Part shown: piece by piece, positions 3,001-54,720 of the stretch
Layout: each line of letters begins with the position of its first letter
Numbering within the stretch: position 1 is the stretch's first letter
NCBI RefSeq assembly: GCF_965363235.1
Contig: NC_134846.1
Coordinates: forward strand, 76,668,724 to 76,732,723
DNA: 64,000 nt
Origin: Mytilus galloprovincialis
Taxonomy: Eukaryota; Mollusca; Bivalvia; Mytilida; Mytilidae
Direction of reading: 5' to 3'
The notes under the pieces: model-generated
What the model was told of the DNA's origin: nothing
Seen by the model: the letters and a program-made list of their open reading frames with translations, nothing else
Databases searched by the model: none
Translations under genes and position numbers: made by a program

Positions 3001-6000
3001 CAGTCATATCACTATTATACTATGAAAGTAAGATGAGAATATTTATCAGTTTTAACTTAAAATCTTAGATCAAAATCACACATGAGACTATGTAATAACT
3101 TCAAATAATGCTTCATATCAGATTATCCATACAACTTATTTACCCCACGTTGTTGACAGCGGGGCCCACAGAGATGGCTCCCATCTCAATGATATCTAGT
3201 TTAAATTATTTTCACTTCAATACACTTTAAAAATAAATATTTTGAAAATTATATTTTGCATCTTTACTTCCATTAACTGATCTATCAAGTGAAATCAAGA
3301 ATAAAAAAAATCAAAATGTCTGTTTACACATGTATCCAATCACATCTCAGTCATTACAGCTGGACGGATGTGCTGGGCCAGCTCTCCTTTATCCGCTATC
3401 TTCGATGAGGGTTTACTTCTAGATAATCAATGACTTACTACTTTAGATGACAGAAACCAATCCAACGCTGTACAGTAAACGCTGTAGTAAGCGTATTCCC
3501 GCGTTAATATGCACTTCAAAACCAGTGATATTGTTGGCTTTTTATTTATAATAAACTATGAATTTGACTGGAACTTAAATTTGCAGACCCCCTTTCAAGA
3601 GGTAAACCCTCATTTGAAATAAGACCCCTTATTGTAAGTGAAGATACATAAATAGACCCTCAAATCTGCATATATAGATTTAGGCATAAACATTTTTTAA
3701 ATGAGTGTTCTTCAGTTTGTTTTCATGCACAATTACTACTGAGACTGCACTGTTTGGGAAAAAAGCTGTTTTTATGGGAATAATTGCAAGCCATTTTTTT
3801 TTTCAAATTGGGATTTTTTTCCAGGGGGAAAAGCCTTTATTCTCCAGTAATTTAAAGCAAACAATATCACTGAAAACCCATTGTAGATAGGGGAGTGTTA
3901 TGCTGATTAACGTCCGAAGGCTGTATCCTAGGTTTTACGGCTTAGGTCCTGATAACGCTTCCTGTCATCTTTAGCGCTACGTCCAAGACTCATCCACCAG
4001 TACTCCATCATCGAGGTTAGCGGGCTGCCAAGCTGACCAAACTAGCCCTGAAAACAGCCGTTGTGAAGAAATAAGAGCAAAATAGTAAACAAACCAAAAT
4101 GAACTCACAAAACCAAGATGGCGACCTCCAAAATGGCGTTCACCACCTGTTCCTGACCGATGGCACGAAATTATTTAAACGCTCACCAATCGCCTTCGGG
4201 CACCGAGCCGATTGTGCAAGGGCTGTATAGCCAGTCAAGGTCGTAAAAAACTTCCATTTGTTGTCTGTTTACATATTAGTTGAGACTGGTATTGTAAAAG
4301 CAACTATATAATTTGAAGCTTCCTAAAAGGGTCTCAGCATCATGACCATAGATTTAAAGTCAACCATATAAAATTGTGCCAAAAGTACTGAAATATATTA
4401 CTCCATTTTAACTGAAACTTGAATTTACAAGAATGCATCAAAGTTATGTGCTAATTAATTATGAGGCTTAAATAAGTGTCTTTTTTTTTTAGTGACATTA
4501 ATTAACGCGTAAAATTGCCCTTTTTTCAATGAAATTTACGCGTAAAATTGCCCGTTTTCTGACAAGTACCCTGCCCTTTTCAAATCCTGGCTAGAACACT
4601 GATGAAAAATATTCACATCTATAATACTAAAATTACGAGGTCCAATTTGTCAGCCGTCATCACGTAAAAACGACGAATCAAAGAATTCAACTTTATATAT
4701 AACTAATATAGTACAAAGGTGTAGATTAAAAATTACACCACTCCAGGCCCTTTTGTTTTCCACGTAATTAATATTGCCAATAATTAAGAAGTTCCTGGTC
4801 GAGTCCGATACCGATACCAATAGTATATTCACCTGTCACCGATTACCTTATCTGTACGTTCCGCATCTGACAGGCGCACCACCAAACGGTGTATTCAGGA
4901 TTAATATGCTATATAGTATTACACGGATCATAATCACAGGGTTGACACTACTTAATTGTCAAATTGTTACCTATTGTAGTATTTTAATCAGTTAAACTTT
5001 CTAAGATAACAATACGAATCTATAATACTAAAATTACGAGGTCCAATTTGTCAGCTGTCATCACGTAAAAACGACGAATCAAAAAATTCAACTTTATATA
5101 TAACTAATATAGTACAAAGGTGTAGATTAAAAATTACACCACTCCAGGCCCCTTTGTTTTCCACGTAATTAATATTGCCAATAATTAAGAAGTTCCGGGT
5201 CGAGTCTGATACCGATACCAATAGTATATTCACCTGTTACCGATTACCTTATCTGTACGTTCCGCATCTGATAGGCGCACCACCAAACGGTGTATTCAGG
5301 ATTAATATGCTATATAGTATTACACGGGTCATAATCACAGGGTTGACACTACTTAATTGTCAAATTGTTACCTATTGTAGTATTTTAATCAGTTAGACTT
5401 TCTAAGATAACAATACGAATACTAAAAATCTGGACTAAAATAAGGCGTATAGGTACAGTTTTCTATTTGTTAGCGGGCATGACGTAAAACAGCGAATCAA
5501 AGAATTCAACTTTATTTATAACTAATATAGGACAATGCTGTTGATTAAAAAGTACTCCATTCCAGGACCTTTTGTTTTCCAAATAATTAATATTATCAAT
5601 AATTGATAAGTTCCAGTTCGACGGGTTCAAACAGAAAGATTTGAAAGCAGAGAAAACTGTGTATCTTATAATCGGCATGACTTTATCAGATAACAATACT
5701 AATACTAAAATAAGGCTTGCGTATAGTTATATACTTCAGTCACGGACCCGCGATATCACGGGTGTGTTCTAGTTTTAATTATGTTTTCCTCTTGTTTGAT
5801 TTCAGTTCTTTATATTTCACAATTTGTGTCTGTATTTTCTGGACAATGATGCACAAATAATGCATTTTGCAAGTTTATTATATATTGTACAAAAAGAGTT
5901 ATAGAAACAAATTACTAAGTAAGATAAATATATTAAGTTGTTCTAAAACACAAGTAAAATTAATATCATAAAACAACAGGGAAAACGTAAAACTTGCTGT

Positions 6001-18676: not shown

Positions 18677-19600
18677 TGTCAAACACATGCAATCAACATA
18701 GTACTAGCAGGTTGATTAGTAAATAGTTATCAAAGATACCAGGCTTATGATTTGATTCAAATACTCATCAGTGACCTTGTGGTCCTATTGAACTTTAGGC
18801 ACGACTATTGTACTCCGACTCAGTGATCACCAATGAAAATACTTGATATGGTGCTTCGAGCACAAGTTGTACTACAAGTATTGGGCAACATTCTATGACA
18901 AAAAGACAAAATTTGCAGAATTTGGGGGAAATCAAGAGCAAAAAGATTGAGAGTTTTACCATTCAACACATTAAATTGACAAGCATTTGCAATACCGAAT
19001 GTCGTGTTATTTTAGTACAATATTACCAATTTAATGTATACTGTTTGAAAGACGAATTGTTTATCTAAAAAAGCATTACGTATTTGAGGAAAATCGCTAT
19101 TATTGCATCTCTATATGTAAAAAACACAGAAAATATGTATAAAAACCCAATTGTAATTGAATTTATGAATAATTTTATTGGCAGTTTTCTAAAATATTTT
19201 AAGATTACTTATTATTCATAATTATTTTAATATTACTTGAGAGAAATGTGTATAAAAAAGAAAAATAATTATACAACCTCCTACGATGATGTAGGTGTTT
19301 TTTTACGTATTTTATTTGTTTTAAATTATTCTGTCTTTTTTAAACTATTAATGTCAAAGTAAAGCAATCCATTTATTCTATTTACCACTATTTACATTTT
19401 TGTTTGTTTTCTGCAAGAGTTACTGAAAAACTGTAATGTCATAGGTGCAGGCGTAACTGATTCAAAAGCAATGTTTAACATGGTTTCTGGACCTAACGTG
19501 TGCCTGTACGCCTCCCACTCAACGATTTATCTCATTAACCAAAAAAAAAAAAAACAAATGAAGGAACAAGTTGAAGATGGAATTTGAATCTTTAAATATT
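18677..19600 (+). pseudogene. NPL-like gene relic, cassette 1 (last two exons)
   Basis: Two eroded exons lie in the same order and at nearly the same spacing as exons 10 and 11 of the intact gene. 18677-18716 matches exon 10 (TGTCAA, then AATCAACA), preceded by TTATAG; its donor GT has become AT. From 19445, after ATAG, the sequence reads GAGVTDSKAMFNMVSG, like GAGINVAKAMFNIVSG of the intact last exon. It then runs into an oligo-A tract and loses the frame before the usual C-terminus. Exons 1-9 were not found upstream. It is a dead third copy, the most decayed of the three. Confidence 0.75.
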
Positions 19601-19965: not shown

Positions 19966-20368
19966 TTATCACCAACCCAGTAGTCAGCACTTTTGTGTTG
20001 ATGAAGTGTTCGGCCTGATGGTCTTTCATGAATCCTGGCATACAACAGATTATTAATCCTGGTAATGAAATTATTTAATTGGTTTCCAACAGTCGCACAC
20101 CATGAAATCAACAAACTTTAGCTGTTTACACGAATCGAATGACACTATGTACATAACCAAGTGCAGATTAAATAATTATATTCTCAAATGAACAAAAGAT
20201 ATAAGAAAATCAAACAAAGACAAAAAAATATATGGTGCCAACTTGTTTGATTACTTACCAGTCCATTATTACCATTCCTGTTCCCAGCTGTTAGCAGAAA
20301 AAATCAGTTCTGTTTCAAGTTGTCCTATTTACAAAAAGTTATCAAAGGTACCAGGATTACAATTTAGC

Positions 20369-20505
20369 ACGTCAGACGCGCGCCTCGCCTACATAAGACT
20401 CATCAGTGACGCTCATATCAAAATATTTATAAAGCCAAACAAGTACAAAGCTGAAGAGTACTGAGGATCCAAAATTCCAAAAAGTTGTGCCAAATACGGC
20501 ATATA
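20369..20505 (-). repeat. Retrozyme-type repeat fragment with dead hammerhead
   Basis: The 3' part of the hammerhead repeat, on the - strand. The hammerhead segment is 20369-20412: CUGATGA and stem II are kept, but the GAA box reads GAG, so the core is broken. It faces the + strand array starting at 20803, giving an inverted pair about 300 bp apart. Confidence 0.7.
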
Positions 20506-20904
20506 TATATATTTAGATAAATCTATTGAACTGTGTACAACAGTTATTAAAAAAATCCATAAAAAAGAAACTGCAGGAAATATCAATATGACCGCTAAGA
20601 CGTGTGTAAGATTATAATTTTGAAATGATTTTCCAAGGAAATCTCTTATAACAGTATAACAGACCAAATAATCTGTACATGTGTGTTTTTTGTATGAAAC
20701 ATCAATTTCTGTCAGTTTAAGTTTGCCGTATCTTTTGAATCCAAAACAAGAGTTGAAAATGCGAAAAAATATGACAAACGCTATCAGACTATATACCTCA
20801 GGCATAGATTGCCTCAGCTGTATTTGGCAAAACTTTTAAGTATTTTGGTCCTCAATGTTCTTCAACTTCGTAGTTTATTTGGCCTTTTTAACTTTTTGGT
20901 TCGA

Positions 20905-20948
20905 GCGTCACTGATGAGTCTTTTGTAGACGAAACGAGCGTCTGGTGT
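20905..20948 (+). ncRNA. Hammerhead ribozyme, copy 1
   Basis: Stem I 5' strand GCGUCA; core CUGAUGA; stem II GUCU-UUUGU-AGAC; GAA; stem III AC-GAGC-GU; C17 (20942); stem I 3' strand UGGUGU. All six stem I positions pair, counting G.U. Every invariant core base is present. The predicted cut follows GUC at 20942. Stem III is only two pairs, as in minimal and dimer-forming hammerheads. Confidence 0.82.
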
Positions 20949-21267
20949 ATATACAAAATTTAGTCCTGGTATCTATGATGAGTTTTATTACAACCACTGG
21001 GTCGATGCCACTGCTGGTGGAGATTTATTTTCCCGAGGGTATCACAAGCCCAGTAGTCAGCACTTTTTGTGCTGACATGAATTATCATTGATATGGTTAT
21101 ATTTATAAATTAACTGTTAACAAAATTTTGAATTTTTGAAATACTAAGACTCTTCTACCTCTGGCATAGATTGCCTTACCTGTATTTGGCAAAACTTTTA
21201 AGTATTTTGGTCCTCAATGCTCTTCAACTTCGTAGTTTATTTGGCCTTTTTAACTTTTTGGATTCGA

Positions 21268-21311
21268 TCGTCACTGATGAGTCTTTTGTAGACGAAACGC
21301 GCGTCTGGCGT
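21268..21311 (+). ncRNA. Hammerhead ribozyme, copy 2
   Basis: Same core as copy 1, with stem III ACGCGCGU, a self-complementary 8-mer that would let two molecules pair. Stem I is CGUCA/UGGCG (five pairs). The predicted cut is after 21305, 363 bases from that of copy 1. Confidence 0.82.
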
Positions 21312-21629
21312 ATATACAAAATTTAGTCCTCAATCTATGATGAGTTTATTAACAACCACTGGGTCGATGCCACTGCTGGTGGAGATTTATTTCCCCGAGG
21401 GTATCAGCAACCCAGTAGTCAGCACTTTTTTGTGCTGACATGAATTATCATTGATATGGTTATATTTATAAATTAACTGTTAACAAAATTTTGAATTTTT
21501 GAAATACTTAGGCTTTTCTACCTCAGACATAGATTGCCTTAGCTGTATTTGGCAAAACATTTAGGTATTTTGGTCCTCAATGCTCTTCAACTTCATAGTT
21601 TATTTGGCCTTTAAACTTTTTGGATTCGA

Positions 21630-21673
21630 GCGTCACTGATGAGTCTTTTGTAGACGAAACGCGCGTCTGGCGT
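21630..21673 (+). ncRNA. Hammerhead ribozyme, copy 3
   Basis: GCGUCA-CUGAUGA-GUCUUUUGUAGAC-GAA-ACGCGCGU-C-UGGCGU. All invariant bases and all six stem I pairs are present. The predicted cut is after 21667, 362 bases from copy 2. It is the cleanest copy in the window. Confidence 0.85.
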
Positions 21674-21712
21674 ATATACAAAATTTAGTCCTGGTATCTA
21701 TGATGAATTTAT

Positions 21713-23347: not shown

Positions 23348-26300
23348 ATGGGCGAATCAAAGAAGGTATATTTTTTAATATGTAATTACTAAATTTAGAC
23401 GAAATTGAAACAGTCATAAAGTGTTAATTTTCCACAGTGCTAACACTGTGTTTAACATGAAATAATTTGAACATACGCCCATATAAAGGCAAATGATTGA
23501 TTTTTTCTAATTTATGTTGAATCTCTATAAGCGGTTAGAAGAACACGAACAAGGAAATGTCTATAAATGTAAATATTAAAAAAAAATAAAAAAATATCTG
23601 AATCTAAGAAAATATTCTGACAAGGTATTGCCTAAGAAAAGGAATAGGTGGATATTTATTTTAAAAACCGTGATTTATCAGTATTTTCGGATGATGCAAT
23701 TGCATTATTGTTGTCTATTATTTGTATTTTAAGAAAAAAATCAAAAATATAATGATCAACGAAATATCGCATTGTATTGGAAAATCCAGTCATTTTTTAC
23801 TTCATGTGCTTTCGATAGAATAGGATCCTTTTGTTTAGAATACAATAGTTTTCTGCGTCAAAGCCAGTCATTGGCAACTTCAGACATATTCACCGTATAT
23901 CAAAGGAAATTGTTTTCTCTCTCCGTTATATAAAATACGATCACAAGAAATGTTTTTTTTTATTACAATGAAAATGAATACGAAAACTATATCAAGTGAG
24001 TTTGTTTTTCTTCGAAATTTTGCTGAATAGTACCACAGAAATGAGGATGCTATCTTACCAGTAGTCAGCACTTAGGTGTTGACATGAATATCAATTATGT
24101 GGTAATTATTTTAAATTTCCTGTTTACAAAATTTTGATTTTTTTGAAAAACTAAGGACTTTCTTATCCCAGGCATAGAGTACCTTAGCCGTATTTGACAC
24201 AACGTTTTGAAATTTTGGATCTTAAATGCTATCCAAGTTTGTAACTATTTTGATACGAGATTCACTGATGAGTCTTATGTAGATGAAACGCGCGTCTGGC
24301 ATACTCAATTATAATCCTGGTTCCTTTGATAACTGTTTGATATATTTGTCATTACAGCAGTTCGAGGATTTTAGAGTGAAAGGATGTGTGTGTGCACCAT
24401 TTACATTACTTAAAGATGACGGGTAAGTGTTATGTACTCGTTTAAATTAAAGTGCAGTAACGAAGCATTGGGTACACATTGATAAGACATCAATCAGATA
24501 GTGCAACAAAACAAAAGAGTCATGCTATGATTCACATATGGTGATGCTTTATGAAAGAAAAAAAATATTTAAGCTACATGACTTATAATGTAAGAAGCGC
24601 GTTTCGTCTACATCATTGGTGCCACTATTAGAACATTTAGAATACAAAATGAAATTCGAACATGGGGGGCATTTGAACCCTATAAATTACATAAATAGTG
24701 ACCAGCACTGATAACACCATTTATGAGTTGGGTAGAAAGCCTTAGTGTTTAGAAAAATAAAAATAATAAATCATGTAAAAATGAAAATTTACAAAACATT
24801 ACCGTGTCATTTAAATTCCAGGTAAACACAAGTATACACAGAAGAGATCACTTCTTGGCTGGTGTTATTCTGGATTTGAAACGTAAAGCTGCAGCGGCAT
24901 CTGCCCAGTGGTTGATTGACTCGTTAAAGAAACACATATTAATACGTTGTCTATACTCATTATTAGTGTCACTCGATTAAAAAGTAATCTCAAGAAGTTC
25001 AACTATTGATAATTAAATCATGTTTTCTTGCATTCTAGATCCATAGAAACATCAAACACATTGCAGAAAATAAGCATATTATTATCGATTAACAACATTT
25101 TTTGCTAATTCATATTGAATAAACAGTATAAAAAAAGTAAAATCACTAAGTACTGAACTCCTAGGAAAATAAAAAAAAGTCCCTAATCTAATGGCAAAAT
25201 CCAAAGCTCTAACACATCAAACGAATGGATAACAACCGATAACTAAGACACAAGTGTTTTTATTCCACGTAAAGTAAACTACATTTTGAACGACATTGTT
25301 TTCTTTTTAGTGAAATTAACTTTGATGGCTTTGAAGACTATGCAAAATATCTCGTTAGTCAGAAGTTCACATATCTTTTCGGTAAGTAACAAGACAATAC
25401 ATGAATCTCTACAATAAAGTTAATTTAATAAAGCTTGATTCCATGCTACTGATCTTTCGTATTCTTGCAAAACTTAACGAAACATAATAGATACCTTATT
25501 GAAAAGTTTTGACTACAGGGGATCTTGGATTTTTTACTCTTGTGCAATATGCCTGTTATAAGTTCGAAGTATATAAAAGTCACAAATATCCTACAACAAT
25601 GCTCAAATGGCTATCATCCCAATACTATCACATTAAATCATTCATTATTTCATAGTGAATGGAACATTGGCAGAAGGGTTGTCTTTGACTCTAGAGGAGA
25701 GAAAACAAACAGCTGAGGCATGGGTCAAAGTAGCGAAAGGAAGGTAAGTTAAAGTGGCGATGTTGAACAATTACTGTAACACAATCAAAAAAGATTTTAT
25801 GCAAATTTTAAATCAAATATAATTTTTGAAAAAATGAAAGTCCAGAAAGAAAGTTTCTGGATGAGACTGAATACATGAACAGCCTAAAACGGGTAGAATG
25901 TAAAAAACATGTTTTAGTTCCGACTTTAATTTTTTTCAGTATTTTTGTTTAGTTCAACAAAAAGTTCGAGACCAAGGGTTTGTAGATTATATGGGTGGTT
26001 GAAAAGGTTGCACTTAAAACCGATGGCAAAATATAGGTTGACGATTAATCACAGGAACCGAAATATCAGTTCATCCAAAGAGTTTATTGTTTGTATATAA
26101 CATCGATTTTTATATGACAAAATATGTATCAACAATCGGTAAAAACTATATAAATATAATGCTCACAATGTGGATAACATGTTAACGCAAAAATAAAAAA
26201 AACACAACAAAAACAAATGTCTTCATTTAAACGTAGGTGGATAGGTTGTCTTATTTGCTATACCACTTCTGCGCTTGACAAAAAAAAACAAAACAAAAAA

Positions 26301-29300
26301 ACAAAAAAACAAAAAACAAAAAACAAATAAAAAACAGGAATAGACGACCAACCTGAATAACCTAAAAATCTTTTATCATATTGTAGGTTTGGCATTATTC
26401 TTCACATTGGAACTAACAATTATAAAGATTCCCAAGAGCTGGTTTGTTTAAATATAGTAGCTTAGTTCAATAATTATGAACTTCCCTAATGGGCAATAAT
26501 ATTATTGTAGGCAATCACTAGCAATATTTCTTGCCTGTGCTGTGGTTATTCATTGTGTGTAGTTTTAGTCATATAGCTCTCATTGTAAGCTTCCCTGCTT
26601 TCATTTTGTTTTAGAACTGATTGTTCCTGATAAGGAAGGGGTATATAGAAACAGTTAAGAAAAAGACAAAAGTAAAGAACAGACAATTTCATTCATGTTT
26701 AATTAAAAAAAAACAACATATGTACACGTGACATATTACTATTACTTGAAATTTGATTATAGTTACTGAAAGCTATTTCGAAGTATTGCTGGTATGTTAA
26801 TCAAGTTTTTATCCCACTTATATTAGCTAATGAACTTAGGAATATACATCGCAAAGTCAAGCCGTACACAGATTCAGGTATCTTGCGCTTTGAAGGCCGT
26901 ACCATGTTAACACATAGTTCTTATCTTCTTTGACATTCGTTACCTGGTGGAAAGTTGTCTCATTGTCAATCTTACCACAACTTTTTCCTCTTCCAGTATG
27001 CTAGTTAAATCTAGTGTTTTATTTGATTTTTATGCCCCACCTACGATAGTAGAGGGGCATTATGTTTTCTGGTCTATGCGTCTGTTCGTCCGTCCGTCCG
27101 TTCGTCCGTTCGTCCGTCCGTCTGTCCCGTTTCAGGTTAAAGTTTTTGGTCAAGGTAGTTTTTGATGAATTTGAAGTCTGAACAACTTGAAACTTAGTAC
27201 ACATGTTCACTATGATATGATCTTTCTAATTCTAATGCCAAATAAGAGTTTTTACCCCAACTTCACGGTCCACTGAACATAGAAAATGATAATGCGAGTG
27301 GGGCATCCGTGTACTGATGGCACATTCTTGTTTACACTGTCTTGGTCTGAAATAATTATTTGGTATCTAGTGACTCGTAAGGCAGATAATTGGCTGAATA
27401 TTTGTTGTTTTATCATGTATGCATATTTTTTATGAATTCTTTTTACTGCAATCAATATGTGACACTCTAATAAACACTTTATTTTATTTGTATGTGTGTG
27501 TTTGTGTGTTGAGCAATATTTATGATACAACTATTAAAAGACATTGCAAATCCACATTAAAAAAATATAAGCGTTAATTGTCTAACAATAACAGTGTCAT
27601 GTTTTGTTATCTTTATAGGCTAGGCATGCAGAAAAGATTGGGGTTGATGCTATAGCATGTTTTGCACCATCATTCTACAAACCAGACTCATTGGGTAATT
27701 GTTCAGATCTAAATTTTATTAAACATAAAATGTTTTACTTAAAACAAACGTTACACTTTTTTTTACATTTTATAGCTGGACAAAATTTATATTTTATTGC
27801 AGGAAAATAATTCTAGTTTTTGTGTCCCCGATTTCATAGTGTTGTTTTGTATTTTGTTGCAGAAACATTAGTTGAGTATATTTCCAAAGTAGCTTCAGCA
27901 GCACCAAATACACCATTCTTCTACTACTGTATCAATTTCTTCACTGGTGTTTATCGTGAGTAAATATCATAATACACTATCTATTCAGATTTTAATCAAA
28001 TTTGCCAATCATTCTCTATTTTTTGTATTTAAGCATTATATTATTCAAGACTTCATTGACCTATTTTTCTCTAATCTTTATTTTTTTGCCATTTTTCGGA
28101 AGCATTGGTACTTTATTCTGTATACGCCATCCAAACCTCACAACCATGGATGTATTACAGAATTACAGAATACAATATTTTATCTCCCAAATCATGGTAC
28201 TCGTTTTTGTGCAGAATAATCAAAATGAATAGTACAAACAAATAATCAAATTAGAAATGAATATAATTAAAAGAAAAATATCCACACACACTCCCAAATA
28301 TGAATGAGATTTCAAAATAGATTTTGTTTTCAATTGTGACATAGTACAAATACTTATTTTAGACTGCAGCATTTTGTAAAAATATTTCGAAACTATCAAT
28401 TTTTAAACGCGCGTCTGGCGTATAAAATTATAATACTGGTACCCTTGATAACTATTTAATTATATATATTATAAGAATGAACTTCGAGCATGTTTATTAT
28501 TAGTGAATGACGCAAAATTCTTGGAGCTCGCTGAAAGTAAAATTCCGAACCTGGTTGGTTTAAAGCATTCATCAAGAGAACTTCCCAATGCTCATCGATG
28601 TATGATGGTTAATCCAAAGAAGTTCCAGGTTATGATAGGGTCCGATGTGGTCAGTATATTTCAACAGTTATTTTTGGATTAAAAAAGAATTTAAATTGAA
28701 TAAAAAATGACAACACACACTGCATAAAGTCGTGTACTATGAAGGAAAATGCAATATACCAGGTACAGAGTTAATACACTTTGATAAGAATGGCTTTCTG
28801 TGGAAGTTTTGACAGTTATCTGCTGGAAAGTCCGATTCCTAATTCTAGTAATTTTTTCTTCGTTTTATTAAAGCATAGCTTGTTTTGTCCAATTGGTGAA
28901 TATTTTTAAGTACAAAAAAAGTAAAATCATAAAAATACTGAACTCCGAGGAAAATTCAAAAAGGAAAGTCCACAATCAGATGGCAAAATCAAAAGCTCAA
29001 ACACATCGAACGAATGGATAACAACTGTCATATTCCTGACTTGGTACAGGTATTTTTTTATGTAGAAAATGGTGGATTGAACCTTGTTAAACAAAGTACA
29101 CTGTATCATAAAACCTGTTTCTGGACACTAATTTGCACCATTCAATAATTTCAGCAACTGCTTACTAGTTTGTCACTTGGTATAGAGGTACCCGTTATAG
29201 CATCGTTTCTAGGACAGCTATTTGACAATATGAAGACGGCTTTCGATAAAGTTGACATGAAAACAGCAAGCAAATATCAGGTATCTATTTAATATTGTTA

Positions 29301-32178: not shown

Positions 32179-32808
32179 TGTCTCCAACTAGAATGCACAT
32201 ATTTTGAGTTTTCCAACAGACAATCTATTGTTGTAATCAAATCAAGCTTTTTGAAATATCACAAATTTTACAATCATGACTGACTTCCTATTTGCTTTAT
32301 TAAGTGTAGATAAGGTGGTATTTAAAACGGTTCCAATACGAAATATGGGTAAACCAAACAATGTTAGAAAAGAACAGGCGCCAACATTTTCCCTTAGTCA
32401 TTTATGGAATTATTTTAATGTCTATATCAGTCAAAAGATGTTTGCAGAAATAATATAAGTTGAACAAACCCAATGCAATACCAATGTGAAACTGAAAGAA
32501 TTTTATAGCAACAGGTGTACATTGCACGAGGTTCTATGAATCTGAGTGTTTCCTATACAAATAATTGGAGATGCGATAGGTTATGAAAAAAACGACAGTT
32601 TCCGTTGTGTTGTAATAAGTGACAAATGCATTACACAAATTTAAGGACAATATCATGCAGTTACCCAAAGACGCTCGGTACATTCCCAAGTTCAAATGTG
32701 ATTTCACTGACAACGTTATGCAATAATCAAGTGTTACAATAACCACCCATTGTTTGGTGAAAAAGGTATCCCGGAACATAGAATTTAACTATGAGTTCAG
32801 ATATTTTC

Positions 32809-33005
32809 TCAAAGGTACCAGTGTTATAATTGTATACGCCAGACGTGCGTTTCGTCGTCAAAAGACTCATCAGTGACGCTCAGATCAAAATAGTTAGAAA
32901 GCCAAACAAGTATAAAGTTGAAGAGCATTGTTGACCCAAAATTCCAAAAGTTGTGCCAAAAACGACTATGGTTGTCTATGCCTGGGATAAGAAAAACAAA
33001 AGTGT
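32809..33005 (-). repeat. Single hammerhead-repeat copy upstream of the GPCR relic
   Basis: Reverse-strand 3' half of the retrozyme-type unit, from TTGTGCCAAAAACG-equivalent sequence to CTGGTACCTTTGA. It carries an intact hammerhead core (listed separately). Confidence 0.75.
32836..32879 (-). ncRNA. Hammerhead ribozyme, single copy
   Basis: On the - strand: GCGUCA-CUGAUGA-GUC-UUUUGAC-GAC-GAA-AC-GCAC-GU-C-UGGCGU. All invariant bases are intact, stem I has six pairs, stem II three, stem III two. The stem II loop differs from the tandem copies while the stem is kept. Confidence 0.78.
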
Positions 33006-33429
33006 TTCGAATAATTCGAAATGGACCCCACATGCCAACCTGATATAACTGCTGCTTTATCATGTTCCTAGCTTTGACATTACTGAATAACTTTGGAATT
33101 GTATGACATGATGCTTTGAAAGCATGAGTAGCTTAACTAGATGATGTAGCTGGTATTGCTTATATTCGTGTCTTGGGTCAATCGGATTGTTTAAATCCCA
33201 TGATAAGTTGTTTGTCTGTTTGTACGTCAATAACATTAATGTGCCAATTTTTCTGCGCCAGATATGCATTTTGACAATAAATGTCTCTTCCGTGATGCTC
33301 AAGGCCGAGAAATTTGAAAATCGAAAGCTTATAAAAAATATGAAGAGCTTAGAAACCAAAATGACAATAGAGTAAAGCCAAAGTCGGGAAAGTCAAGTTT
33401 CTATTGATGTCAGTTTCTTATAACTATTT

Positions 33430-34442: not shown

Positions 34443-36934
34443 ATAAACGATAAAGACCTTTTACACAAATATAAGCTCATCAGTATCCCAAAACTGTTTT
34501 ATATCAGATTTCTTTCAGATTCAAAGAGGCTGTCGACATGGGGATCCCTTGTCACCTTATATTTTTCTTTTATGTGCTGAAATTCTAGGAATTTTAATCA
34601 GAAAGAACAAAGAAATTAAAGGAATTAAAATTGATGACACAGAATATCTTATCTCCCAATACGCAGATGACACATCAATAATACTTGACGGTACACCTAA
34701 ATCTCTAGATGCATCTCTTCGCTGACTCCATAAATATGCTGAAATGTCTGGTCTCCATATGAACTTGGACAAAACAAAGGTGGTGTGGATAGGCAAAAAA
34801 AAAATATAGTCAAGACACAATGTGTGTAAAATGGGGATTGGAATGGGGTTCCAGTAGGGTTACATTACTAGGAATAAACTTTTCTGTTAATCTGCATGAA
34901 ATGGAACTGTTGAATTATGGTCCAAGAATTAAAGAAATTGAAAATATAATAAAAATTTGGTCTAAACAAGCATTAACACCAGTTGGAAAAATAACTATCA
35001 TTAAGACACTAATTATTTCAAAATTGAACCATCTGTTTTTAACATTACAAGCACCATGCAAAAATACTTTAAAACAACTAACTGACAAAATTTATTCATT
35101 TATTTTGGAAAACAAACCTGACAAGATTAAAAGAGAAATATTATGTTCTGAACACAAATTAGGAGGGCTGAAAATGATAGATATTGACAAATATATAAAA
35201 GGATTGAAACTAACTTGGATAAGACAGTTGTTGAAAAACAACCCAAAACTAAATAAGCTATTAGAAAGTACTGAAAAAATTAGTATTGAAAACCTAGTTT
35301 ATTTAGGTCCAACAAAAAGATGTAAAAACCCTTTTTTGGGAAGAAGTTTTTAAAGCTTGGACAGATTTACAAAATAAATTCATACCAAAAAATGAAGAGG
35401 AGTTTTTATCAGTTTCGCTCTGGAATAATGAAAACATAAAAATAGGAACAACATCCATTTTCTATAAAGACTGGATAGATAAAGGAATCTTTTTGATAAA
35501 TGATTTATTAAACGATGAGGGAAAACTAATGACTTTTCAACAATTCCAAAACATTTATAAAATTAAGTCAAACTTTCTTACTTATAATGAGGTCATTTCA
35601 TCAATAAAATCATATAAAAAGGCTTTAAAAAACTATATATCCATAAACAATTGTTATAAAACACTAGGACCAATTATGCCGAATAATATAAGAATGTTTT
35701 TTTATCAAGAAAAGGCTCGAAAGATATGTATAATGTTTTATTTGAAAAAAGCAGTACTAAACTTAGATGTGAAGAAAAATGGTCCTTAACACTCAACAAA
35801 AATTTTGATTGGAAAACTGTGCATAATATGTCTTTTTACTCCACAAAAAGCTCAAAACTCCACTGGTTCCAATATAGAATAATACACAGAATATTGGGCA
35901 CAAATAAATTTTTATTTAAGATAAAAATAAAACAAAGCGATAAATGTACTTTCTGTAATGAAGTTACTGAAGATATTGAACACATCTTTTGGACATGCCA
36001 TAAAATAGCAGATCTGTGGATAAGACTCATGGACTGGATTTATAACCAAACACAAATAATTATTCCATTTAACATGGATATAATTTTATTCGGAAATTTA
36101 AGAAAAACAGAAAATAATGAAATAAAAAACCTTAATAATACTTTTATCAAAATTCTTTATCTATAGAACAAAACTGTGTGAAAATCAAGTAAATTTTGCA
36201 GGGCTGAAAAACTATCTAAAAGAAAATCTAATACTAGAAAAGAATATATTTTTTAAAACAAAGCCTCTTCACATTGCCAACCTCTACTGGGACCCCTGGC
36301 TTCCATTATTAGACTGAATAATTTACACTTAAGCAACCTAATTAGCATTACCCTATGTAATGTTATTGTGCATTTTATTTTAGCCTTCTCACACCAACAT
36401 ATATGTTTTTATATAATATACTGTTATATGATATTTATTGTTTATTGTCTTTTGTTCTTGTTTTGTGCCTAAATGCATATACATTCTTTAATATCTGATT
36501 TGTGTTTGTATGTTTATTTACAATGGAAAACCAACTTTGCCAAATTAATTTAATGTTGTATCTTAAGAAAAAAAAATATTGCTGCCAAATTCCAAATTTC
36601 AAAGATTTTTTATTTTAATTTTTTTTTTCTCTAGTTTTTATTTTTTTTGTTTTTTGTTTTGCTTTTCTGTTTTATTTATTTATTATTTTCTCTTCTCTTC
36701 TCACTTTCTCTCTCAAATAAAATTCTCACTTTATTGATAAACATTGAAATAATTGATACACAATATACTGTATATATATTTTATAATTTTGAATACTAAC
36801 AATTACTAACAATTTTTCTAAATATACAATCTAATGTTTAACGAGGCCGGGATAAGGTACCGGTACTTTCTGTATCAAACCAATAAATGTGAAAGTTTTC
36901 AATAAAGTATGTATAATTTAAAAAAAGAAAAAAA
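34443..36934 (+). mobile_element. 5'-truncated, decayed LINE (L1/Tx1-like) with 13-bp target duplication
   Basis: AGAAACCGTAATG flanks both sides (34430-34442, 36935-36947) and the right end is A-rich. Reading frames give the C-terminal half of a reverse transcriptase: FQIQRGCRHGDPLSPYIFLL, then SQYADDTSIILDG (catalytic YADD), TPVGKITIIKTLIISKLNHL, and a zinc-knuckle-like CTFCNEVTEDIEHIFWTC typical of the domain after RT in L1/Tx1-type LINEs. An in-frame TGA (about 34722), an oligo-A frameshift near 34800 and breaks near 35350 and 35760 make it inactive. The endonuclease and ORF1 are missing. The site corresponds to intron 2 of the NPL gene; the intact copy has the empty site near 24730. Confidence 0.85.
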
Positions 36935-44207: not shown

Positions 44208-45119
44208 TCATATAACAGTACAGAATGTATCTTGTTGGGGTTTTGCAAATCTCCTTTTGATACGACCAAATATTTGAAAGGTAGCATTTCTGAATCGCCT
44301 GTTTTGCAGTGGATATACAATCGGGTTGGCAAATGAATTCAGAACTCCGAAAAAAGCAGATATCTCAGAAATGTGTATCATGAGTTCGTTTAGTTTTGTT
44401 GTTGATGCTTGATAAACTAAACTTATGGCAAACGGTGTCCAGCAGAACATAAATATTACCAAAATAACTGCCATAAATTTTGCTGCTCTAAGTTCATGTC
44501 GGAATTTCATCAAACGAGAGTTTAAAACTAGATTTGATTCAATCGACACAATCTGGCGTCTTTTAGTGACAGCAGCTTTGCACATCATTACGTACATCGC
44601 ACACATTGAAAATAATATGACGAAGTACTGCACTGGAATGAAAATGGTATATTCTCGAGGTGGCATGCATCCGGTATTATTTTCAGTCATTTCGAATTGT
44701 TTTGTTACTACTGGCCACATTGTTAAAAGTGCGCAATATACCCAAGTTCCAAAAACAAATGCAACTGTTTTCTTTCTTGTGACAGTTGTATATTTTCCAT
44801 GGTAACAAACACACAATAGTCTTTCGAACGCTGTCAGTAATACCGCGAATAAAGATGCAAATGATACGAAAACCATCGACGAAAATCGAAATATACATAC
44901 ACCTGGTAAATCTCTCAAATAACCAACGAGATTAAAAATGGCCTGCCAGATTAAGATGATGCCCACCAAAATATCCGCAGACGATAAATTTAACATTAAA
45001 ATATTTCCAGGTACACTTACGTTGATGTATTTCCATAGTATGTGAAGAACTATTCCATTTGCCAAAATAATGGGTATTCCACAAATAAGTTGTATTATTC
45101 CTCTGTCTTTCTCGTTCAT
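44208..45119 (-). CDS. Rhodopsin-family GPCR, orphan (intact, intronless)
   Basis: A 303-residue seven-pass plasma-membrane receptor in one open frame. Class A landmarks in order: TM1 N21 (ANGIV), TM2 D49 (LNLSSADIL), Cys75 before TM3 and Cys151 in loop 2 for the conserved disulfide, E99-R100-L101 in place of DRY, TM4 W126, TM6 FCWTPF, TM7 NPIVY, and a short basic tail (GRIKRRFAK). There is an N-glycosylation sequon at N147 in loop 2. The extracellular N-terminus is only a few residues, suggesting a small ligand. The ligand and G protein cannot be read from sequence. It is a member of a class A group I cannot name. Two broken copies lie at 31380-32178 and 19745-19965. It converges with the broken NPL copy. 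Confidence 0.93.
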   Translation of the reverse strand: MNEKDRGIIQLICGIPIILANGIVLHILWKYINVSVPGNILMLNLSSADILVGIILIWQAIFNLVGYLRDLPGVCIFRFSSMVFVSFASLFAVLLTAFERLLCVCYHGKYTTVTRKKTVAFVFGTWVYCALLTMWPVVTKQFEMTENNTGCMPPREYTIFIPVQYFVILFSMCAMYVMMCKAAVTKRRQIVSIESNLVLNSRLMKFRHELRAAKFMAVILVIFMFCWTPFAISLVYQASTTKLNELMIHISEISAFFGVLNSFANPIVYPLQNRRFRNATFQIFGRIKRRFAKPQQDTFCTVI

Positions 45120-45734
45120 TGTCTTCCACTAGAATTAAAACTCTTAGTTTTCAAACAGTCATAATATTTTGTTGTGATTCAATTCAACCTTTTTGAATTA
45201 TCACAAATTTGCAATCATGACTGACCGACTAGACGCTTTATAAAGTGTAGCTTAAATGGTGACTTAAACTGTACGAATACAAATTGTGGATAAATTAAAC
45301 AATGCAAAATAAGGACAGGAGCCAACGTTTTCTATAAGTAAATAACAAAATTGTTTTATGACTATTTCTGGTTAAAGTTGTTTGCAGAAACCATATCTTT
45401 TGTTTTAAATAACACTATATACAATAGAATAATGGCGTTATGTTTAACCGTTTTATTACAATTTTAAGAACTGTCCATCTGTCAATGTATAAAATATGTT
45501 AATATTAAATCTAATGCTGCACAGAAAACAACTATTCATCCAGTTTGAGAATGCTGCATATATACCTGTGAATTGAAAAACAAATAGGGGAAATATTTTC
45601 AATTAGACAAACCCAATACAAGTGTGAAATTCTCAACTGTGTCTACACCGAAACAAATGTTTGAAATCAATAGTTTTTCATTTTCGATACCAGTTTTACA
45701 GCTGCAGGCGTGTATTGCACAATGTTTTATTTAT
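45120..45734. other. GPCR 5' flank
   Basis: The sequence upstream of the receptor start is alignable by eye with 32179-32525 upstream of the cassette 2 relic, so the promoter region was duplicated too. No specific promoter element was picked out. Confidence 0.45.
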
Positions 45735-46738
45735 CTAAATAAACTCATAATAGATACCAGGATTTAAATTTTGTTTTTAAGGCACACGCGCGTTTCATCT
45801 ACAAAAGACGCCCGAATCAAAAAAGTAAAAAAGGCAAAATAAGGTACGACGTTGAAGAGCATTAAGGACCAAAATTCCTAAATGTTTTGCCAAATACATC
45901 TAAGGTAATCTATTCCTGAGGTAGAAAGCCTTAGTATTTCAAAAATTCAAAGTTTTGTAAACAGTTAACTTATTAATATGACCATCAGCACAGAAGGGCT
46001 GACTACTGGGCTGAAATCGGGCTGATGATGGGCAATAAACACTTCACCAACAGTGGCATCGACCCAGTGGTTGTAAATAAATTCATCATAGATACCAGGA
46101 TTTAAATTTTGTTTTTACGCCAAACGCGCATTTCGTCTACAAAAGACTCATCAGTGACGCTCGAATCAAAAAAGTAAAAAAGGCCAAATAAAGTACGAAG
46201 TTGAAGAGCACTGAGGACCAAAATTCCTCTAAGGTAATCTATTCCTGAGGTAGAAAAGCCTTAGTATTTCAAAAATTCAAAGTTTTGTAAACAGTTAATT
46301 TATAAATATTACCATCAGCACAGAAGTGCTGACTACTGGGTTGGTGATACCCTCGGGGAATAAACATTCCACCAGCAGTGGTATCGTCCTAGTGGTTGTA
46401 AATAAACTCATCATAGATACCAGGATTTAAATTTTGTTTTACGCCACACGCGCGTTCCGTCTACAAAAGACTCATCCGTGACGCTCGAATCAAAAAAGTA
46501 AAAAAGATCAAATAAAGTATGAGGTTGAAGAGCATTGAGGACAAAAATTCCTAAAAGTGTTGCCAAATACATCTAAGGTAATCTATTCCTGAGGTAGAAA
46601 AGCATTAGTATTTCAAAATTTCAAAGTTTTATAAAGAATTAATTTATAAATATGACCATATCAATGATAATTCTTGTCAGCACAGAAGTGCTGACTACTT
46701 GGCTGATGATACCTTCGGGGAATAGAAAATCCACCGTG
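45735..46738 (-). repeat. Tandem hammerhead-repeat array (retrozyme candidate), - strand
   Basis: Three diverged units of the hammerhead repeat in tandem, with spacing about 330-360 bp. The hairpin GTCAGCAC..GTGCTGAC occurs at 45984, 46314 and 46676. Hammerhead segments: 46441-46484 is dead (CGGAUGA, GGA, GUG), 46117-46160 is nearly intact, and that near 45785 has lost the CUGAUGA half. The sequences on either side are continuous in cassette 2 (about 32525-32560), so this ~1.0 kb array is a clean insertion made after the cassette duplication. Its 3' end (CTGGTATCTATTATGAGTTTA) matches that of the 20803 array. Confidence 0.8.
46117..46160 (-). ncRNA. Hammerhead ribozyme, near-intact, GUU cleavage site
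   Basis: GCGUCA-CUGAUGA-GUCUUUUGUAGAC-GAA-AUGCGCGU-U-UGGCGU on the - strand. The core boxes and six stem I pairs are kept. Position 17 is U instead of C, and the second stem III pair is U.G. NUH sites include GUU but cut more slowly, so activity would be weak. Confidence 0.6.
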
Positions 46739-47703: not shown

Positions 47704-49643
47704 TCAAGTATCATTCTGGGCTTCAGACACTCTCTTCATGTATTCCTCGTATGACGGTGGCTCAGAACCATTACTAGGAGATGCCACAGACCCTTCACTT
47801 GTTGTTACCAATTCATCCTGCCATCTATGTGTTATTCGAACAATGTCGAACGTATCAGGAGAGTCAGGTAAACATTGATCTGCTATGACAACCTCGTATG
47901 GTGGTGGGTCTTCATTTGTCGGTAATCGTCTAAAAAATATTGAACATCATTAAAAGTGATGCATTTCAATGAGTGGTTTGCTGTTTTCTTGTAAACCGTA
48001 GTCGTTTGCTTTAATTGGTGTTCCAATTGCGTTAATGTTTCATTGATGATATTATCAAAACTTAAACATATTACATCTTCCGTCATTTCGTGTAATTACA
48101 GGAAGGATTCGTGTTTATTTTTGTTTACTGTAATTTCAATTTGACTGTTATTAAATTTAAGCACGCAATTATATACGATGGTAAGGATTTGATTCTTGTG
48201 TCTTCCTATAATTGGTCAATGGCGCCCATTTGTTTCTCAGATATCAGATAGAGTCTTGTAATATTGCCTTTTATATATAAAAAAGACACCAGAGGGACAG
48301 TCAAACTCATAGAGCGAAAATAAACCGACAACGCCATGGCTTATAACAATACTTGCCCATTTTGATTGTTCTCTTCATTTACTGAAACACTACACATTGT
48401 TGCTGTCGTGCTACTACACTGAAACAGAATTTTCAAACTAATAACGGAAATTAAAGAGTAGTGCTGGAAGCAAATGAATTTCCAACTTCAATACATTTGA
48501 ATCGTTTACAGAATATATATATATATATAAGAATATGTGGTATGAGTGCCAATGAGACATTTCTCCATCCAAGTCACAATTTGTAAAAGGTAAACAATTA
48601 TAGAAGTATGTTTATCAAACCTGAATACAAAATTATCATGTTTAATTAGTTTTCAAAGGTACCAGTATTATAATCTAAAACGCCAGACGCGCTTTTCGTC
48701 TACGTAAGACTCATTAGTGACGCTCGAATCAAAATAGCTATAAAAGCCAAAAAAGTACAAAGTTGAAGAGCATTGAGGACCCAAAATTCCAAAACAGTTT
48801 ATAGTATAGTCACTAAGTTACCTCTAACATGGATACAAAAAGTACTGTCAAAATCTTTCTTGCTGAATTTTACTTATTAAAATCATCAAATAGCAAAATC
48901 TAAAGCTCAAACACATAAAACGAATGGTTTGTTTTTGTTGTACTTCAGTGGTACTGTTGTTCCTGTGTTTTCCTCTTTTAGTTGATATGTTTTCCTCGGT
49001 TTTGGTTTGTATTAACCCGGATTTATTTTCTCTTGATCGATTTATGACTTTTGAACACTGGTATACTACTGTCATTTATTATTTAACAACTGTCAAATTC
49101 CTGACTTGGTATAGGCATTTTTGTATGTAGAAAATGGTGATTTAAACCTGGTTTATAGCTAGCTACACCTCTCATCTGAATGACAGTCTAAAAAAAACAT
49201 TATATTGACAATGGTGAAAAAAAAACCAGAAATAATAGGTAAAAATGTCAAAAATAGGGGTAAATTCATGAATCTTACCTCAGTTATTTGTCTAGAAGAG
49301 TACAGGGTAGGTTGACAGTCCCTTATCAGTATTCTCTCTCTCGTCCTAGTCTCTACAAAATGAAATTGATTGAATGTCCCTCTAGCTAAAAGTAAGGCTC
49401 CTACAACGATCAGAACAGGACCAACATATCTTTCTGTATTACCCTCTGTATGTCTCTCTAAATTCTGGAAAGTAACCGAGGTTACAATGACGCCAAACAC
49501 CAGTAAGGCAAGTCCAGAAATTATGTAACATAATGCGTTACCAATTAAGAGAAGACAGGGGTTCTCGTACTGAATGTATCTAGCCGTGGCTGGTATATTC
49601 CTCCAAGTAATTACAGTCTGTGTCTGTGTACTTGTATGCATAC
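47704..49643 (-). CDS. Two-pass membrane protein with PPxY motifs (partial gene model)
   Basis: Two supported exons. Exon 49279-49643 has an acceptor (CTAG) and donor (GAG^GTAAGA); its first ATG (49639-49641) opens MHTSTQTQTVITW. It encodes two hydrophobic segments, LLLIGNALCYIISGLALLVF and YVGPVLIVVGALLLA, with a polar loop between. Exon 47704-47929 ends in TGA and encodes a cytosolic-type tail with DPPPYEVV and EPPSYEEY, two PPxY motifs that bind WW domains such as those of NEDD4-type ligases. The two exons do not join in phase, so at least one more exon lies between them. I do not recognise the family; an adaptor or trafficking role is inference from PPxY. Confidence 0.65.
48529..48605 (+). 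repeat. Short SINE-like repeat fragment
   Basis: AGAATATGTGGTATGAGTGC then CAATGAGACATTTCTCCATC, truncated after ~75 bases. Confidence 0.6.
48655..48800 (-). repeat. Hammerhead-repeat fragment with dead core
   Basis: Reverse-strand 3' half of the repeat. The hammerhead segment is 48680-48723. CUGAUGA reads CUAAUGA, hitting the invariant G5, so it should not cut. Confidence 0.75.
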
Positions 49644-50204
49644 CTAGCAAAGAAAGAAAAAAACGTAATTTTACCTTGAAAAAGTCATATCTAAAATACG
49701 ACATCTATTTTTTTATTTACTTTCTTTGATCAAGCTTCTATGTGATTGCGGGGAAACAAACGAGTCGACTACATATAACAAAATCATTGTAAAATTTGTC
49801 AGAGCAATTGATAAAGACAAAGGTCATGTATTTGTGTTTCTCTTGTCATGACAACATGCCCGTTTCCCTTCCTCGTTTATGAGAAAAATGCTAAAAAATC
49901 AGATAAGCATGAGTCAAATGAACATAACATGAATAGTGTATCCGAATAGAAGGCTCTTCAGAAGATCTTTAAAAAAACATGATGTACCAATAGTAAACGG
50001 GGTTTTAACTCTTTCAAAGTGCCCGAGGTTGTGGATGCTTTATCCTCTTTTAGCAAAAACATGTTGTTTTTTATGATATTTTAACAAAGCTAAACTACAC
50101 TTCCCTCTACACTAATGTATCGCCGGATGCCGAATATAACAGTATGTTTACTTGCAATGAGCAACACAACGTTTAACACTAGTGGATCAGGATCTGCTTA
50201 CGAG

Positions 50205-50510
50205 GGTATTACCAGCTCAGTAGTCAGCACTTCGGTGTTGACATGAATATCAATTACATGTATATGGTCATTTTTTATAAATTTCCTGTTTACAAAACTT
50301 TGAATTTTCTTATAGCAGGAGTAGATTACCTTAGCCGTATTTGGCACAACTTTTTGGAATTTTGGATCCTCAATGCTCTTCAACTTTGTACTTGTTTGGC
50401 TTTTAAACTGTTTTGATATGAGCGTCAATCATGAGACTTATGTAGACGAAACGCGCGTCTGGTTTATTAAATTTTAATCCTGGTACCTTTGATAACTATT
50501 TTACCCTACC
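50205..50510 (+). repeat. Single hammerhead-repeat copy, dead core
   Basis: Complete-looking monomer from CGAGGGTATTACCAGC to GGTACCTTTGATAACTA. It includes the hairpin GTCAGCAC-TTCG-GTGTTGAC (50223-50242), whose loop is the very stable UUCG. The hammerhead (50421-50467) reads AUCAUGA for CUGAUGA and should be inactive. Confidence 0.78.
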
Positions 50511-53413: not shown

Positions 53414-53559
53414 TTCCTCCCCCTTTTTCTTATTGTAAAAGAATATTCATAAACACAAATAAAAGAATACTAGAACACGTTATTAAGATGATAAACAATG
53501 TCAGTTCCACGAATCTTTACTTGAGGACTATCGTTGATATGGAATATTTATCAACAAGG

Positions 53560-53960
53560 TTTTGGCACCTTCCGATGAACTTTTTTTTAGAAAAGGACTA
53601 GACGTTTTTTGAAATACTCCTGGTTCATCAATTAACTTTCTACTCAGACACTGGTAGCAGCTGCAAGCTCTTGAATACCGAATAAGTTGGGAAATGTATA
53701 TCACATATGCAGGTGAAGTTGGTTTATTGCTGCTAAGCTGGGGGTAATTGATAATTTCAAAATTAAAATCGTCTCGTTTGTTGTAGATTCTGGTACTGAG
53801 ATGACCACGTATGCCAAATTCGAGGTATAAGTATAAAAATGAGGCGAAGGAAGTCGTGTCTGTTGTTTCTATGATTTCTAATTCTGGGGATATATATAGA
53901 TATCTAAATGTGAAATTAAATGATATAGCTTCTACGATCTTCTTGTTTTTGACAAGCGTC
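53560..53960 (-). pseudogene. Retroelement polyprotein fragment
   Basis: An open stretch reads STRIYNKRDDFNFEIINYPQ, then LSSNKPTSPAYVIYISQLI and RYSRACSCYQ. This block (YDKRDDFNF..SPAYGVYISQLIRYARAC) is familiar from retroelement proteins common in bivalves and cnidarians, downstream of the reverse transcriptase. Only this piece remains and I cannot name the clade. It abuts a LINE fragment of the other strand. Confidence 0.5.
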
Positions 53961-53999
53961 TGAATGAACTCCGACTCAGTAAACTCAATAAACTCAGTG

Positions 54000-54720
54000 A
54001 CCATCAAAGACCGAGCAAACGAAGCCCTTATAAGACCAAAACTAGAATTCTGCTGCACTGTCTGGGACCCTTACACAACAGAGAACATTAACTCCATTGA
54101 AAAAGTCCTAAGACGACACGTGCAGCGAGATAAGAGGGTTGTAAAGGGTTATTTCCGTGCAACGTGATCGCCGTTTTTTATTTGACGTAACTATAACGTG
54201 TTTTTACTTTTTTATTTGACGTTCAGTCGTGCAAGACAGGTGCCTAGTTCACCGTGACGTGTTCTGCTTATTTAATTTTACGTGCATCGTGATTTTCAAA
54301 TGCTAATTTTGCGCGCTCGGTATTTTTCAAATAAAGTTCAAACACTTGACATGGATCGTCAAGAAATACTTTTTTAAAAGCCGTAAACCAATTATATCAT
54401 AAATGTGTCTACTAAATCGGGAATATCAAGTAAAACAGAGAGTTAATTTATACAAGAAGACAGTGACTCAGTCACAAAAGGTTCACATCAAAGTATATAT
54501 TTTTGTGCAACGTTCATGACAGTCAGAAAAGATTTCACGATTAAAAATGTTCCATAGAATTACAAACAACAAAATTGCCATACCACATACTGACATACCA
54601 ACTACAGCAAATCAAACACAAGGTCTAGCCACGAACAAACATACCGACAAATTCGAAAGAGCAAAAACATTTTCAAATTTTCAATTTTCTACCAAACTAT
54701 AAAAGACTGGAACAAATTAC
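54000..54720 (+). pseudogene. LINE reverse-transcriptase C-terminal fragments (Jockey/CR1-like)
   Basis: 54025-54120 reads ALIRPKLEFCCTVWDPYTTE and NINSIEKVLRR, the end of a Jockey/CR1-type reverse transcriptase (usual form LVRPHLEYA..VWDP..IEKVQRRAAR). After ~410 unrelated bases, 54545-54718 resumes with MFHRITNNKIAIP and a KDWNKLPEIYTD-like end in shifted frame. The element is split and dead. Confidence 0.6.

Follow-up and report, generated by a model that had tools for sequence, protein, structure and literature searches.

The stretch of the Mytilus galloprovincialis genome analysed here (64,000 nucleotides, hereafter the window) carries a head-to-tail array of hammerhead ribozymes, and raises the question of which enzyme copies such an element, and from what template. 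In the passages covered of a 2020 review, metazoan retrozymes are described as devoid of a conserved motif from which a helper retrotransposon could be deduced (PMC7761336), and Penelope-like elements (PLEs) have been named a strong helper candidate on the basis of shared ribozymes, tandem copies and co-occurrence (PMC7229834). The insertions studied here have a fixed 3' end and scattered 5' ends, and they have in common with an abundant PLE of this genome a folded RNA domain, its fold and the position of their ends. The mussel retrozyme most likely carries the initiation module of its helper PLE, and probably does so on a circular RNA.

Results

Hammerhead ribozymes of the window array

The original prediction placed three complete hammerhead cores at 20905, 21268 and 21630, and all three are present as described, each as a type I hammerhead on the forward strand (20905..20948, 21268..21311 and 21630..21673). 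Their predicted cuts, after 20942, 21305 and 21667, likewise agree with those proposed and give unit lengths of 363 and 362 nt. The array itself, assigned here to family A, keeps its predicted 3' limit at 21712 and is longer than first described at the other end, since it starts at 20794 and not at 20803. It thus spans 20794..21712 (+), or ~2.5 head-to-tail units, and is 5' truncated at phase 214, with its 3' end at phase 44 past the ribozyme cut.

The Rfam Hammerhead_1 model matches the three cores at 26.2, 29.2 and 32.5 bits (E 1.6e-3 to 1.3e-5), all of them under the curated cut-off of 34 bits, and a scan of the window at the gathering threshold returns zero hammerhead matches. A hammerhead grammar in which core, stem II, A15.1-U16.1 and stem I are all required finds three sites on the forward and two on the reverse strand of the window, against a mean of 0.02 and a maximum of 1 in 200 dinucleotide shuffles. 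Stem III of the window hammerheads comprises just 2 bp (A-U and C-G), with a closing GCGC loop that reads GAGC in copy 1. The folding check proposed for these ribozymes had a divided outcome: the covariance model matches all three, but the minimum-energy folds of the window copies are not hammerheads, so that a test by folding alone would fail on them notwithstanding the covariance match. Among isolated 62-nt pieces, those of A1, A2 and B1 do not adopt a hammerhead at minimum energy, and that of family C forms stems I and II with stem III absent. Relative to shuffles, the self-pairing energy of the whole circle is lower for A2 and C, slightly lower for A1 and higher for B1 (-66.9 vs -72.9).

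Retrozyme identity and families

Unit size, hammerhead type, families, GC content and copy pattern fit the published mussel retrozymes (PMC7229834), and support both the original prediction and the assignment of the window array to an element kind already published for M. galloprovincialis. Each unit carries a type I hammerhead, and the units are short tandem repeats within the 150-450 bp range and with a GC content below 50%, as listed for retrozymes. Inspection by eye revealed no LTR, primer binding site or polypurine tract. In this species a cloned retrozyme copy self-cleaves, circular RNA of 350-400 nt is abundant and ligation involves RtcB (PMC7229834); by analogy with that work, the window array may be expected to cut itself and to circularise.

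A search of the genome (1.385 Gb in 331 contigs) yielded 15,211 copies of the exact core pattern and none of a reversed control pattern, and the exact patterns had zero matches in viral and prokaryote contigs. Together with the insertion structure detailed below, this genome-wide count supports the reading of these repeats as a retroelement rather than a mere satellite. Family A, that of the window, and family B (~356 nt) are alike over most of the unit and differ in their tails. In a third family, C, units measure 349-351 nt and the ribozyme differs from those of A and B in four base pairs, spread over all three stems and changed on both sides; as judged by eye, all four are confined to the single C row of an alignment holding 39 of 102 units. 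Family C accounts for 171 exact core matches in the genome (100 listed). Overall, unit lengths range from 324 to 368 nt, and GC content from 0.36 to 0.38 in four units.

Unit length is constant inside each of the eight family C arrays that provide 60 listed spacings, and takes a value of 349, 350 or 351 among arrays; within A and B arrays it varies by up to 10 nt, and in older arrays it shifts by a few nt. The largest family C array (G000 C1:433306-448387) contains 44 cores at exactly 350-nt spacing, and the 5.5 units read from it (L010, 4273-6201) are 100% identical and finish at a 3' end homologous to that of A and B. Among units with siblings, the nearest relative lies in the same array in 25 of 31 cases and in another array in the remaining six. 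Identity averages 0.966 within arrays (33 pairs, identical C units included) and 0.873 between arrays of the same family (303 pairs).

A fixed 3' end and scattered 5' ends

Insertion ends were sampled in 40 stretches surrounding the core matches listed first for contig C1 (~78 clusters), together with the window, excluding the duplicates L001-L008. BLAST with real A and B monomers recovered 84 elements, two of which were dropped for their closeness to stretch ends (n = 82). The 3' ends of 63 of these elements lie at phase 35-54 nt past the cut, and 56 fall inside a single 10-nt interval, for which a uniform distribution predicts 7.0 (maximum of 11 in 1000 simulations). This fixed end falls a few nt before the folded domain described below (ACCACTGGGTCGATG...). 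In the window array it corresponds to 21706..21712 (+), which the end phases and the coincident ends of retrozymes and PLE indicate as the putative start of reverse transcription. The 5' ends, in contrast, are spread across the entire unit, with a best interval of 7, equal to the uniform expectation; in plain counts, four of them are found at most 5 nt from the cut, where 2.3 would be expected. This scatter, devoid of a clear pile-up at the cut, disfavours the linear ribozyme-cut monomer as the usual template.

Elements with the fixed 3' end (n = 63) range in length from 35 to 1956 nt, with 39 shorter than 362 nt, 24 reaching that length and 12 reaching 724 nt. The fixed end is also carried by 23 of 38 elements in which the exact search pattern is absent; in the window, 10 of 14 carry it. 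The remaining 19 of the 82 3' ends fall outside the peak. The family C copies L010, L031 and L041 share the homologous end point by eye; in the automatic count L031 and L041 were scored off-peak and L010 was dropped. Long target-site duplications show no excess, the longest word shared by both flanks averaging 5.71 as against 5.58 in shuffled pairings (49 elements), and five empty sites readable by eye in partial output indicate duplications of 0 to ~4 bp. The target-site duplications of >4 bp listed for retrozymes, which the source gives as optional, are thus not seen here. No poly(A) or microsatellite tail was detected by eye. A second, HDV-like ribozyme was considered as the source of the fixed 3' end and rejected, since Rfam returned no match of this kind around the array at E up to 10.

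The same organization is apparent in the other retrozyme copies of the window. A more divergent family A array (45738..46735, -) ends at phase 45, and the 5'-truncated family B copies at 24058..24338 (+), at 20333..20500 (-), adjoining the main array, and at 50201..50501 (+), inserted in a PLE 3' remnant, all have the same 3' end, as does a short 5'-truncated copy at 28405..28458 (+). Two further 5'-truncated copies, at 32806..33022 (-) and, in family B, at 48640..48799 (-), end at phases 37 and 47, respectively. The window also contains a short tail copy (18719-18753, -) behind a CTGATGAG core whose remaining ribozyme sequence is either absent or replaced, and a 401-bp tandem repeat (4617-5621, 2.5 copies) with no BLAST match to the A and B retrozyme monomers. 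Among its open frames, that at 34793-35350, neighbouring the LINE remnant discussed below, has no Pfam match, and one of 306 codons at 44208-45128 (-) resembles by eye a G-protein-coupled receptor.

A folded RNA domain in the retrozyme unit

Directly 3' of the fixed end sits a strongly conserved segment of the unit, and this segment is the folded domain, made of three nested helices and common to retrozymes and PLE. It occupies 20993..21056 (+) in unit 1 and 21355..21418 (+) in unit 2 of the window array, where a structure model scores it at 86.7 and 88.2 bits, both copies being part of that model. A covarying hairpin, helix 5 of the covariation analysis, adjoins the domain at 21056..21076 (+) in unit 1, where it is formed by GTCAGCAC and GTGCTGAC, and at 21418..21439 (+) in unit 2. 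In the helices of the retrozyme domain, double-sided changes amount to 42 cells, compared with 11.1 in shuffles (40 of 52 units), a figure that includes two cells from a pseudoknot helix not claimed here, and 93.0% of the cells pair against 89.5% in shuffles (40 of 52 units). The structure was drawn from a family C row, a choice that gives it an advantage over slid versions in these counts. Two further measures on retrozymes only were equalled in 36 and 158 of 500 shuffles, and show no excess. With PLE sequences included, 12 cells are changed on both sides against 3.7 in shuffles; the number of pairs changed on both sides, matched in 149 of 500 shuffles, and that of further pair types, matched in 393 of 500, show no excess.

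Two additional features of the domain were evaluated and set aside. A CUGGU/ACCAG pseudoknot across it pairs in 90% of cells, but each of its two double-changed pairs is represented by a single such cell, and the pairing is disrupted in several copies of family A. A coding role is suggested by one frame open across the domain in the PLE copy L049, yet an extra base in family A and the paired changes favour RNA. A domain variant beginning with TAACCACTGGG is found at G000 C9:75596699-75597146 and nine other listed places, three times at 135-/272-nt spacing on C9, and is perhaps another element using the domain.

Domain and end point shared with a Penelope-like element

A PLE fragment beside retrozymes (L036) was the entry point to a family for which the genome yields 51,328 first-look candidates; a retrozyme tail piece 3' of that fragment was inspected and taken as a separate short copy. 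All 150 scored candidates have E-values of 4e-133 or better, with 20 located in open frames spanning 990 codons or more, and the identical scores of many copies suggest a recent spread. Pairs of reverse transcriptase (RT) matches are spaced 3369-3371 nt, corresponding to tandem copies, and the unit of L049 measures ~3370 bp. A single ORF of L049 matches RVT_1 at E 8e-5 and GIY-YIG at E 0.033, neither match reaching its Pfam cut-off, and among 92 homologues several have precomputed PF00078 or PF01541 annotations. L049 hence combines the two hallmarks listed for PLEs, an RT and a GIY-YIG endonuclease in a single ORF and the occurrence of tandem or partial tandem copies. Its endonuclease is N-terminal, and presumably places it in the permuted 'Naiad' clade. 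PDB sequence searches with the PLE protein gave just two chance-level matches. In the window, a decayed RT remnant (53531..54070, -) is 43% identical to the L049 PLE over 173 positions.

The retrozyme domain is found in L049 at 347-435, just 5' of the start codon inferred at 451. Family C and L049 are 75% identical over 119 nt (E 3e-18, computed on a single 3.4-kb target), the predicted folds of their 63-nt domains have the same bracket pattern, and helix 2 of the L049 domain has one pair changed on both sides relative to retrozymes. The structure model scores L049 (part of that model), L051 and L052 at 81.8 to 90.4 bits. Of the 20 PLE copies with such long frames, 18 carry the domain where it is expected, 2303 nt 5' of the RT segment: 15 as an exact 41-nt match, one with a single mismatch and two, identified by reading and by the structure model, in a more changed version (87.6 and 81.3 bits). 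The last two copies are truncated at a point 3' of the domain. In a second PLE lineage, of the L046 type, the domain is absent by sequence and structure from a 1201-nt piece near the inferred ORF start (L050). No hammerhead was found in the single unit L049 by either Rfam or the grammar; pLTR hammerheads are common, not universal, in PLEs. Helper and parasite would therefore have just the module in common.

The ends of the PLE coincide with those of retrozymes. Among PLE 3' non-coding matches in these sampled stretches, which are separate alignments and not copies, and from which those near stretch ends or covering only the domain were dropped, 20 of 37 end -2 to +4 nt from ACCACTGGG, as do 57 of 82 retrozymes at -2 to +6; of the other 17 matches, one runs 5 nt into the domain, six stop 15-32 nt before reaching it and ten end at greater distances. 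L052 (C5:43627900-43629200, -) is an array of tandem 174-nt PLE pieces, each with tail and domain (five domains and a sixth tail), that has the same 3' end point and no Rfam hammerhead, and it is suggested that the PLE itself gave rise to it, as a circle-like or template-jump product. In L051 (C7:85773700-85774900, -), a PLE copy beside or inside a family B retrozyme, the domain occurs four times at the 5' end at 112-nt spacing, every repeat beginning at the inferred start site.

Discussion

A model for retrozyme copying

In the model proposed here, the transcript of an array would cut itself at each hammerhead, and a host ligase would close the resulting ~360-nt pieces into circles. The PLE-encoded RT would then recognise the folded domain beginning with ACCACUGGGUCGAUG and start internally at the ACCACUGGG boundary, on the 5' edge of the domain and ~43 nt 3' of the ribozyme cut. 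Priming would take place at a broken genomic site, and copying would go round the circle over a random distance, such that a short run would leave a 5'-truncated single copy and more than one lap a tandem array, both with the same 3' end point. The retrozyme would act like a SINE that uses the PLE initiation module on a circular template, a role proposed on the grounds that the domain is common to an abundant autonomous PLE of the same genome. The fixed 3' end, the scattered 5' ends, the shared domain with its fold and the coincident ends are observed; the binding and priming of retrozyme RNA by the PLE protein, as well as the circularity of the template, are inferred. That non-LTR retrozymes are copied from circles by a PLE RT starting at the shared domain is, on this evidence, the most likely reading. 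The broader proposition that metazoan retrozymes are circular-RNA SINEs of PLEs, in which a transferable folded module, taken from or shared with the PLE, loads the RT and fixes its start while rolling builds arrays directly, is put forward as a whole with somewhat less assurance, as a likely one.

The main alternative keeps the same helper PLE but has it copy linear, uncut multimers transcribed from an array already in place, the circles being a by-product. Internal initiation and 5' truncation on such a transcript would leave similar insertions, so that circularity is not forced by the data, and hammerhead mutants of the anole PLE still insert in vitro, with uncut RNA as the dominant substrate (PMC11167929). 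Yet retrozyme RNA occurs mainly as circles in M. galloprovincialis (PMC7229834), and the 44-unit array with its 350-nt spacing would require a transcript, and its reverse transcription, of more than 15 kb, unless the array grew after insertion. A linear template is therefore a possible but somewhat doubtful reading.

Two other explanations dispense with the PLE as the present mover. Were these repeats an ordinary satellite with incidental ribozymes, dispersed through unequal crossing-over or as extrachromosomal DNA circles, tandem arrays of up to 44 units would be natural, and a uniform unit length within an array can result from unequal exchange too. A fixed end is not predicted by DNA-based spread, though, and the 39 on-peak elements shorter than one 362-nt unit have precisely that, next to random 5' ends; the family C ribozyme, with paired changes on both sides relative to A and B, further speaks against incidental ribozymes. 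This explanation is very improbable. It is also conceivable that the domain was inherited from a PLE, or captured by one, and that a LINE or some other enzyme now moves the retrozymes. Sequence sharing alone is no proof of use, and the window does contain a LINE remnant (35687-36163, +) with a zf-RVT match (zinc-binding RT region). However, PLE and retrozyme share their end point in addition to the domain, and the lack of poly(A) or microsatellite tails by eye and of an excess of shared flank words is at odds with this reading, which is deemed unlikely. Copying by the PLE from circular RNA hence stands as the preferred explanation.

The shared domain and coincident ends allow a direct test of the helper question that needs a single protein and a single short RNA, and they indicate where an abundant invertebrate PLE is likely to recognise its RNA. 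If correct, the model would identify the missing helper of animal retrozymes, together with the element by which an invertebrate PLE whose endonuclease is N-terminal recognises its RNA. It would also constitute a natural case of reverse transcription begun inside a small circular RNA, and explain the tandem arrangement of ribozyme arrays.

Comparison with known systems

The elements described here resemble the mussel retrozymes reported by Cervera and de la Pena (2020; PMC7229834) in their type I hammerheads, in the existence of two similar ribozyme families, and in their ~350-390 bp units, low GC content and tandem and dispersed copies. The 15,211 exact cores compare with ~5000 motifs in that study, and the fixed 3' end, the folded domain and the sharing with a PLE go beyond what is described in the parts of it covered here, as does the third family with its compensated ribozyme pairs. 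Within the open-licence literature, in the portions covered, no report of the domain, the fixed 3' end or a PLE helper link was found for retrozymes, and the covered passages of a bivalve transposon survey do not mention hammerheads (PMC10294476). The novelty thus probably resides in the probable copying route, that is, in the fixed 3' end, the shared domain and the PLE link, the element kind itself being known. Plant LTR retrozymes, as summarised in PMC7229834 and PMC7761336, are also non-autonomous, hammerhead-bearing and associated with circular RNA, but they differ in their type III ribozymes, LTRs, primer binding site and 4-bp duplications, and are probably mobilised by Gypsy machinery.

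The L049 PLE is similar to the retrozymes in its 63-nt domain, its fold and its genomic 3' end point, and differs from them in encoding a GIY-YIG-like and RT protein and in the lack of a detected hammerhead. The closest experimental parallel is the Poseidon PLE of Anolis carolinensis, in which reverse transcription starts internally, 3' of the hammerhead cut (Frangieh et al., 2024; PMC11167929). RNA past the start, up to +172 of the ORF, is required in that system, whose genomic copies terminate where reverse transcription starts (PMC11167929). Poseidon differs in being autonomous and in its C-terminal endonuclease, and retrozymes are not mentioned in the portions of that study covered here. 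Its start lies 111-118 nt into the ORF, ~85-92 nt past the ribozyme cut (PMC11167929), whereas the mussel retrozyme ends ~43 nt past the cut. The mussel retrozyme nevertheless presents the same order of elements as the Anolis PLE, with the ribozyme followed, after ~43 nt, by the end point and then by the domain, and it is on this shared order that the proposed start of a PLE RT at the domain of circular retrozyme RNA is based.
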